NCBI GenBank assembly: GCA_021651055.1
Contig: JAJHOH010000001.1
Span: 2,232,001-2,296,000 of the forward strand
Source: Candidatus Manganitrophus morganii
GTDB taxonomy: Bacteria > Nitrospirota > Nitrospiria > SBBL01 > Manganitrophaceae
Direction of reading: 5' to 3'
DNA: 64,000 bases
This document shows positions 58,189-60,584 of this stretch, piece by piece. The notes under the pieces are model-generated. The model did not search any database and was not told the origin of the DNA. It worked only from the letters and a program-made list of their open reading frames with translations. The stretch's first letter is position 1; each line of letters begins with the position of its first letter. A program made the position numbers and the translations under genes.

Positions 58189-58240
58189 GTAGGGGTGTGA
58201 TATCACGCCCGGCCGGAGGGCGCCATGAATGCGCCCCTAC
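58189..58240. repeat. REP-like double palindrome, overlapping a gene end
   Basis: GTAGGGGTGTGATATCACGCCC, a short joint, then GGCGCCATGAATGCGCC and CCTAC. Two stems: GGGTGTGAT/ATCACGCCC and GGGCGC/GCGCCC. The same two-part element occurs inverted at 12949-12999. Its last four bases contain the TAG stop of the minus-strand gene that ends at 58237. Confidence 0.75.
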
Positions 58241-58521
58241 ATCAGGGGGATCCGCTTTTCCTTGGCGGCATGTTCCAGGACCACCAGAGCGGTGTGTAAT
58301 CGCTGAAGGCGGGTGTTCCGTTTTCGAATCCCCATCGTATCGTGCGTGGGGAAACTTTCCGACCGAACCTCTCGCTGCACTTTCTTCAGCTGTTGATGAA
58401 GGGTTTTGTACATCTCCTTCTCGAAACGCTTCAGGACCAGAGGATTGAGAACCATGAATCCCTCTGCGATATCTTTCGCGACGGCGACGACGCTCTTTCC
58501 CCGGATCTGACCTTCGGCCAT
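58237..58521 (-). CDS. Small basic protein, unknown (94 aa)
   Basis: A mostly helical, Lys/Arg-rich protein with a possible amphipathic helix at about 28-55 (LVLKRFEKEMYKTLHQQLKK). No domain recognised. The ATG at 58519-58521 has GAGG five bases upstream; the frame is open 20 codons further but would run into dinG. Its stop codon is inside the REP-like element, so the C-terminus may have been altered by REP insertion. Starts 26 bases from the divergent dinG start. Confidence 0.6.
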   Translation of the reverse strand: MAEGQIRGKSVVAVAKDIAEGFMVLNPLVLKRFEKEMYKTLHQQLKKVQREVRSESFPTHDTMGIRKRNTRLQRLHTALVVLEHAAKEKRIPLM

Positions 58522-58547
58522 TTCGACCTCAAAAAAAGGATTTTCTG

Positions 58548-60584
58548 TTGGCGAGGAATAAGATAAAAGATACCGGATCATCCGATTCCTGTCAAAAGCT
58601 CTTCCTTCCCGGCGGGCTCCTCTCCACCCTTTTAAATCGTTACGAATACCGCGAAGGGCAAATGCGGATGGCTTCCGCGGTTGCCGAGGCGCTGGAGGGG
58701 CAGAGCACCCTTTTGGTGGAGGCCCCCACCGGGACCGGAAAAACCTGGGCCTACCTGATTCCGGCCGCCCTCAGCGGAAAACGGGTCGTGATTTCCACCG
58801 GGACCAAAACCCTTCAGGACCAGCTCTACCAAAAAGATCTCCCGCTCCTGGCGCAATCGCTCCCGCGCCGCTTCACCTACAGCATGATGAAGGGAAAGGC
58901 GAACTACCTCTGCCTTCACCGGTTCGGACAATTTCTGGAGCAGCCGACCTTTCCCGACCTGGAAGTCGGATCAGATTTTGAACAGCTCCACCGCTGGTCG
59001 ATGGAGACCGCCACCGGCGATCGGGCCGAATTGACGGCGCTCCCGGAGGGGTCGCCCCTCTGGCCGGAAGTTTCCGTGAAGGGGGAGGCCTGCCTCGGGA
59101 GCGGATGTCCCGACTACGACCGCTGCTACATCACCCGGATGAAGCAATCGGCCGCCGCATCCGACCTGATTGTCGTGAACCACCATCTTTTCTTCGCCGA
59201 CCTGGCGCTGAAAGATTTTTCCTTCGGGGAGGTCCTTCCCCGTTACGACGCCGTGATCTTCGACGAAGCGCATCTGCTGGAAGAGGTCGCCACCCAATAC
59301 TTCGGTGTTTCGATCAGCAGCTACCGGGTGGAAGATTTCCTCCGCGACACCGAGCGGGAGGTCCGCTTCTCCCAACCGCAGGAGAAAGGGTATCTCGACC
59401 AGTGCGCGCGGATCTTGGCGAAGTCGAACCGTTTCTTTCAATTTTTCAGGAGAGGGGAAGAGCGATACCGTCTGACACGCGCATTTTTCTCGCGGGAAGC
59501 GGTCACCGCCGGGCACGATCTTCTCCAATCGCTCGACCTGCTTCGCCAGCAGATCCACGCCGCGCAGGTAAAAAGCAACGGTTTCTCTCATCTTGCGGAG
59601 CGGATCGAATTGTTCTCGGCCGACTTGCAGCTCTTTCTGACGGCGAATGAGTCGACCCCGTTCGTCTTCTGGGGAGAAAGCCGAAGGCTGGGGGTCTTTC
59701 TTCATGCGTCGCCGCTCGACGTCTCGGCCCTCCTCCGCCAAAAGCTTTTTGAGCAGGAGATCCCGATCGTCCTCACCTCCGCGACCCTCTCTTCCGGTAT
59801 GCAAAGCCGGGGCGTATTGCAATACGCCCCTACGGCGACGGGGGCTTTCGATTTTATGAAAGAGCGTCTAGGGATCGAGCAGGCCGACGAGGCGGTTCTT
59901 CCCTCCCCCTTTGACTACGAAAAACAAGCGCTCCTTTATCTTCCGAGCCATCTTCCGAGCCCGACGAGCCCCCCGTTTGTTCCGGCGATCGCGGAGGAAA
60001 TCGTCCGAATCCTGGCCGCCAGTGAAGGGAGAGCCTTTCTCCTCTTCACCAGCTGGAAAAATCTGGAAGAGGTCTATCGATTGATCGCCCCCCGGGTTCC
60101 CTATCTCCTCCTCAAGCAGGGAGACCAGCCGAAGCATGCGCTGATCGAAACGTTCCGGAACGAGGTCTCCTCGGTTCTCCTCGGAACGACCAGCTTCTGG
60201 CAGGGGGTCGATGTTCAAGGGGAAGCGCTCTCCTGCGTCATCATCGACAAACTCCCTTTTGCCTCTCCTTCCGACCCCCTCATCGCCGCCCGGATCGAAT
60301 CGCTGATCGATCAAGGGAAAGATCCCTTCATGACGTTTCAATTGCCCTCCGCGATCCTCTCCCTTCGACAGGGGATTGGAAGACTGATCCGGAATCGGGA
60401 GGACCGGGGGCTTCTCGCTATTCTCGATCACCGTGTGACGAGAAAAGAATACGGCCGGCATTTTCTCGCGAGCCTTCCTCCCTCTCCCCGGACCGATCGG
60501 TTCGAAGCGGTTCAGCGTTTTTTCTCCGCAGGATCGCCGGAGCAGCAAGAGGATCGCATCACAAACGCCCCCCGGCAAACTTGA
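58548..60584 (+). CDS. dinG: DinG-family ATP-dependent DNA helicase (678 aa)
   Basis: XPD-like superfamily 2 helicase. Walker A APTGTGKTW at about 59-67, four Cys of the probable 4Fe-4S site (CLHRF; CLGSGCPDYDRC), DEAH box VIFDEAHLLEE, and C-terminal motifs TSATLSSG, LFTSWKNL, SFWQGVDVQG and QGIGRLIRN. Unwinds DNA 5'-3', including R-loops and forks. The start is TTG 58548 with AAAGGA seven bases upstream. After TSATLSSG about 14 extra residues are encoded by a REP-like palindrome, after which FDFMKERLGI resumes. Confidence 0.93.
   Translation: MARNKIKDTGSSDSCQKLFLPGGLLSTLLNRYEYREGQMRMASAVAEALEGQSTLLVEAPTGTGKTWAYLIPAALSGKRVVISTGTKTLQDQLYQKDLPLLAQSLPRRFTYSMMKGKANYLCLHRFGQFLEQPTFPDLEVGSDFEQLHRWSMETATGDRAELTALPEGSPLWPEVSVKGEACLGSGCPDYDRCYITRMKQSAAASDLIVVNHHLFFADLALKDFSFGEVLPRYDAVIFDEAHLLEEVATQYFGVSISSYRVEDFLRDTEREVRFSQPQEKGYLDQCARILAKSNRFFQFFRRGEERYRLTRAFFSREAVTAGHDLLQSLDLLRQQIHAAQVKSNGFSHLAERIELFSADLQLFLTANESTPFVFWGESRRLGVFLHASPLDVSALLRQKLFEQEIPIVLTSATLSSGMQSRGVLQYAPTATGAFDFMKERLGIEQADEAVLPSPFDYEKQALLYLPSHLPSPTSPPFVPAIAEEIVRILAASEGRAFLLFTSWKNLEEVYRLIAPRVPYLLLKQGDQPKHALIETFRNEVSSVLLGTTSFWQGVDVQGEALSCVIIDKLPFASPSDPLIAARIESLIDQGKDPFMTFQLPSAILSLRQGIGRLIRNREDRGLLAILDHRVTRKEYGRHFLASLPPSPRTDRFEAVQRFFSAGSPEQQEDRITNAPRQT
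59809..59833. repeat. REP-like palindrome inside dinG
   Basis: GGGGCGTATTGCAATACGCC plus CC and TAC: a perfect 22-base palindrome (59809-59830) with the CTAC end of the other elements. It is read in frame as part of a loop inserted into DinG. Confidence 0.7.

Follow-up and report, generated by a model that had tools for sequence, protein, structure and literature searches.

An in-frame GTAG-class REP palindrome in a YoaA-type helicase gene of Candidatus Manganitrophus

GTAG REPs, defined by Di Nocera, De Gregorio and Rocco in 2013 (PMC3733652), have been found in frame inside genes, many of them involved in replication or repair and often alone in their species in carrying a REP; their GTAG tag, described as not base-paired, often supplies TAG stops for flanking open reading frames (ORFs) (PMC3733652). 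The repeat described here resembles them in being a short tagged hairpin, mostly extragenic, sometimes in frame in repair genes and a source of TAG stops, and differs in that its most frequent type forms a complete palindrome with a tag at each end, the copy inside a yoaA-type gene lacking the left tag. The Rickettsia palindromic elements (RPE), of the CGTC class, are also in-frame palindromic repeats in likely functional proteins (PMC3733652), but they carry a CGTC instead of a GTAG tag and have many insertions per genome, against one in 49 elements studied here. With the REP/REPIN sequences mobilised by RAYT (TnpA-REP), the repeat shares the architecture of tag and hairpin, the dispersal, and the presence of filled and empty sites between relatives. 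In-frame GTAG REPs have been known since 2013, and the present case is a clear new example in a phylum, Nitrospirota, with no occurrence in the text of that paper (PMC3733652). Literature searches on the arms of the repeat and on its peptides returned no relevant paper.

The locus lies in a window of 64,000 nucleotides, the whole stretch of DNA analysed, from the genome of the manganese-oxidising bacterium Candidatus Manganitrophus, a single contig of 4,287,287 bases (4.29 Mb). The gene carrying the palindrome (Table 1) had been named dinG in the preliminary description, a name that holds for the family and fails in the strict sense: the protein scores 735 bits against NCBIfam NF053712 (YoaA), above the cut-off of 680, and remains below the cut-offs of the NCBIfam DinG models (437 bits with a cut-off of 789, and 356 with a cut-off of 598). 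Its Pfam matches are Helicase_C_2 and DEAD, and Foldseek gives E. coli DinG (6fwr) as the top match of its predicted fold. The helicase of Ca. Manganitrophus sp. GAC4 (G004, L046) is 95% identical. In the GAC4 assembly (L046, L222), three deletions of 1 nt each, located within or next to short runs, break the frame of the gene; these look like long-read errors, real decay being possible, and have not been taken as gene decay.

Table 1. Coordinates of the features at the helicase locus, as positions in the window.
Feature	Positions	Strand	Basis
Head-to-head pair of GTAG hairpins (GTAGGGG...CCCCTAC), intergenic, just upstream of the helicase gene	58189..58240	.	Chance expectation 0.00
Convergent ORF whose TAG stop is supplied by the GTAG tag of the hairpin pair	58237..58581	-	ORF list
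YoaA/DinG-family (XPD-like) repair helicase gene carrying the insert	58548..60584	+	ORF of 678 aa; NCBIfam, Pfam, Foldseek
Insert of 42 nt (14 codons), residues 418-431, MQSRGVLQYAPTAT	59799..59840	+	Alignment of 45 homologues; pLDDT
REP hairpin core, perfect 22-bp palindrome GGGGCGTATTGCAATACGCCCC	59809..59830	.	18-bp core with 16 genomic copies
CTAC, the GTAG tag on the minus strand	59830..59833	-	Sequence; other copies mostly GTAG...CTAC

A perfect palindrome, its position in frame and a gain of about 14 codons had all been claimed for this gene, and the three claims stood. The palindrome, followed directly by TAC, is in frame within the 678-codon ORF, and the loop that links TSATL to the following helix comprises 19 residues in the window protein, against 5 in 35 of the 45 aligned homologues. 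No second loop-free palindrome with arms of 11 or more exists in the 64-kb window, where the core of this one, GGCGTATTGCAATACGCC, has one match at up to three mismatches, with 0.01 expected. The palindrome and its right-hand CTAC encode only about RGVLQYAPT of the 14 added residues. At the left end GCCG stands where GTAG is expected; the tag is thus kept on one side only, and GCCG opposite CTAC leaves the ends unpaired. On each strand, the 28-bp element can be read through in two of its three frames, and the third starts with the TAG of the tag; the frame used by yoaA reads RGVLQYAP. The 28 nt including both tags fold at -20.5 kcal/mol (z -5.94). The local mRNA around the insert folds no better than shuffled sequence (z -0.90), and mRNA structure was rejected for this reason as an explanation of the insert.

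A genome-wide count, proposed in the preliminary description as a check, gave 16 exact copies of the 18-bp core and none of the reversed control, and the reading of the palindrome as a REP was borne out by a dispersed family of intergenic, GTAG-tagged hairpins. Their architecture is GTAGGGGCG-N8-15-CGCCCCTAC, written more widely as GTAGGGGCG-N-CGCCCC, with several stem types. Most copies of the core extend to the 28-bp element GTAGGGGCGTATTGCAATACGCCCCTAC (GTAG...CTAC), and the same outer arms enclose self-complementary stems of the types TATTGCAATA, ACGCATGCGT, AATCTTGTATT, ATCCTTGTGAT, GGTTTCAAACC and others. The traits by which the GTAG REP superfamily is recognised are present: a short (20-40 bp) palindromic stem-loop, here a perfect palindrome of 22 bp; a terminal tag, most genomic copies starting with GTAG; sub-families with compensating changes in the stem; and a dispersed, multi-copy, mainly extragenic distribution. 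The exception is the unpaired tag of the 2013 wording, since in the TATTGCAATA type the GTAG end is complementary to the CTAC end and the predicted fold pairs the two; in most copies of the AATCTTGTATT type the tag is found at one end only.

The surroundings of 49 elements were studied, an incomplete census of a genome that holds at least that number, with genes called by a home-made script that had learned codon usage from the window. The yoaA copy alone is buried deep in a coding sequence; the other 48 are outside genes or at gene edges. Two of these are close to the end of a gene, L141 at 19 nt from an ORF's 3' end and L163 at 6 nt from a called start, and the remainder are intergenic or overlap gene edges by no more than about 20 nt. 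The hairpin pair upstream of the helicase gene is the typical extragenic arrangement, and the tag that gives the convergent ORF its TAG stop is at 58237-58240. Long frames ending exactly at the TAG of GTAG were found at L114, L115, L116, L118, L121, L125 and L153, and GTAG repeats appear to supply stop codons to flanking frames in this genome. GGCGAC directly follows CTAC in the copy within yoaA (positions 59830-59839) and in that of L116, and is missing there from the other exact copies; this may reflect a shared source or chance.

In the AlphaFold2 model of the window protein (mean pLDDT 87.2), the insert sits between the strand of motif III (TSATL, residues 407-411) and the helix formed by residues 435-441. 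Residues 420-431 are the only internal stretch with pLDDT below 50, the remaining low stretches being both termini, and the model suggests that the insert is a disordered loop tolerated by the protein. The loop modelling suggested in the preliminary description has thus predicted disorder, and of the coding use of a repeat proposed there, the repeat in a coding frame is upheld, while use of the peptide is not, the model pointing to a tolerated disordered loop.

The alignment of relatives showed that the insert residues are absent from outgroups: members of the same order outside the genus have 0-3 extra loop residues, and relatives outside the genus mostly have a loop of 5 residues. In Myxococcota the loop has grown independently by 4-11 residues without a REP. 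It had been argued beforehand that the same residues in distant proteins would speak against a REP origin; distant homologues do not have them, which favours that origin. The loop is enlarged in all six congeners, by 10-18 residues (18 in G001, 14 in G003, 10 in G005 and 14 in G000, the window species). The palindrome is intact only in the three closest species, G000, G002 and G004, which carry it at the same site with perfect 22-bp identity; the only difference seen in the tag of the element is a synonymous change from CCT to CCG between G000 and G002. The genes of G001, G003 and G005 have no intact palindrome and are still open. The gene tree places G001 and G003 together as a sister pair that falls outside the group of G000, G002 and G004, with G005 branching earlier. 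Since all six congeners have the enlarged loop and three of them have no intact palindrome, the enlargement predates the divergence of the species that carry the palindrome. G001 reads CGGGGC.....GCAAGACGCCCCGAC in register with the REP (GCAAGACGCCCCGAC against GCAATACGCCCCTAC), a match equalled by one of 2000 dinucleotide shuffles; this is read as a decayed copy of the right arm, so that the insertion is probably old, and we infer that a REP was there before G000 and G001 split. The same comparison detected no REP similarity in the longer loops of G003 and G005.

The explanation that best accounts for these data, and that we consider very likely, is that a GTAG-class REP was inserted into the short loop after motif III of a yoaA-type helicase gene and was kept in frame, giving a most likely functional product with a near-neutral peptide. 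A small non-autonomous palindromic element would have entered this loop by a transposition-like insertion, either in the ancestor of Ca. Manganitrophus or in the ancestor common to the window species and G001. It would have settled in the frame reading RGVLQYAPT, the net gain of 42 nt keeping the gene open, and since the loop would tolerate changes in length, the protein would most likely have remained functional and the peptide near-neutral. The palindrome would then have been preserved in the three nearest species while degenerating in the rest. Several observations stand against this explanation: the left tag GCCG makes the yoaA element an incomplete copy of the consensus, no Y1 transposase was detected in this genome, no Y1 gene among those examined in REP-bearing relatives has the repeat at its flanks, and the long loops of G003 and G005 have no REP similarity, so that the loop may have grown before the REP or independently of it.

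This last point leads to a possible, though clearly less probable, alternative, in which ordinary indels had already enlarged the loop in the ancestor of the genus, and the REP was later inserted, or replaced part of the loop, only in the lineage of G000, G002 and G004. Earlier growth would account for the 14 and 10 extra residues of G003 and G005 and has a parallel in the independent gain in Myxococcota, and a late arrival is consistent with a palindrome that still matches the family core perfectly and with the abundance of the TATTGCAATA type, within the genus, only in those three species. However, G001, outside that lineage, matches the right arm in register at 13 of 15 positions and retains the left GGGGC, which argues for the earlier insertion.

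It is improbable that the insert has been retained for a function, be it as a nucleic-acid element in the gene (an RNA hairpin or a protein-binding site) or as a peptide tuning the helicase. The perfect identity in three species, with a synonymous change as the sole one in the tag, and the recurrence of repair genes among REP-bearing genes, both in PMC3733652 and in this class, would fit such a role; but the mRNA region folds no better than shuffled sequence, the genes of G001, G003 and G005 are open without an intact palindrome, and the model predicts disorder for the loop in the protein. A chance palindrome unrelated to repeats, in a loop that does vary quickly in length and sequence within the genus, can be dismissed, contradicted as it is by the copy count (a core identical to 15 other copies, mostly intergenic and tagged) and by its being unique of its kind in 64 kb.

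With respect to the mobility of the family, at 18 of the 49 sites a script paired both flanks with a REP-bearing stretch of G002, the pairing of L164 being doubtful, as its match is the stretch already paired with the neighbouring L120. Sites are filled or empty between close relatives; thus, the element at L125 is present in G000 and G002 and absent, along with some flanking bases, in G004, G003 and G005. Two sites show further differences. At L118, about 1 kb present in G002 (L219) and G004 (L220) is missing in G000, with a REP at the junction; by eye only, an open frame in this segment reads like a diguanylate-cyclase-type protein. At L142 (G000) and L175 (G002), the flanks are about 96% identical and the stems are of types AATCTTGTATT and ACGCATGCGT, respectively; the detailed alignment is messy, and the difference may be due to element exchange or local rearrangement. 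Unlike the REP/REPIN systems, no Y1 (RAYT-type) transposase was detected in G000, which has no PF01797 match; the Y1 genes of G002 and G005 have no flanking GTAGGGGCG hairpin, and among those examined in 12 REP-bearing relatives, none is flanked by this repeat. A RAYT was consequently rejected as the mobiliser, no REPtron-like arrangement of a repeat-flanked Y1 gene having been found in the genomes examined.

Of 197 genomes of the class, 35 contain exact GTAG-to-CTAC forms, the reversed control giving one hit per strand in total, and the identical 28-bp TATTGCAATA type is found in other families (G023, G027, G028, G034, G040). Five IMG/VR viral contigs (L202-L206) also carry the exact 28-bp element. 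A survey of 76 exact GTAG-to-CTAC elements in nine other genomes of the class, requiring Pfam or NCBIfam support for the gene, together with one locus found outside this filter (L251), gave five proteins besides YoaA in which a GTAG REP reads in frame. They are a family-4 uracil-DNA glycosylase with two elements N-terminal to the conserved domain (L258), an Lhr-like C-terminal half with one exact and one variant element (L251), a P-type ATPase with an element between Pfam domains (L249), CheB with an element just before the methylesterase domain (L277) and a DmsC-like anchor (L237). Long frames that run over REPs at L238, L260 and L289 have no Pfam match and were therefore not accepted as genes. 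Three of the six proteins (YoaA, the glycosylase and the Lhr-like one) are repair or helicase-related, which agrees with the 2013 claim on repair genes, although so few cases do not suffice to establish it. That in-frame GTAG REPs are kept preferentially in DNA-repair proteins, either as preferred targets or because the loops tune repair and mutability, as speculated by Di Nocera et al., seems unlikely at present.

The case extends in-frame REP insertion to Nitrospirota, and it shows one insertion caught at several stages: absent in the outgroups, intact in three species and decayed in one congener. It also adds an independent example in favour of the earlier claim that genes with REPs are often involved in repair. 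The REP-derived peptides VGAVREPPL, VGATHASPL and VGAGLKPAPT recur among these proteins, and annotators could recognise them as repeat-derived. The case also illustrates how conserved enzymes can gain residues from short repeats where a loop tolerates them.
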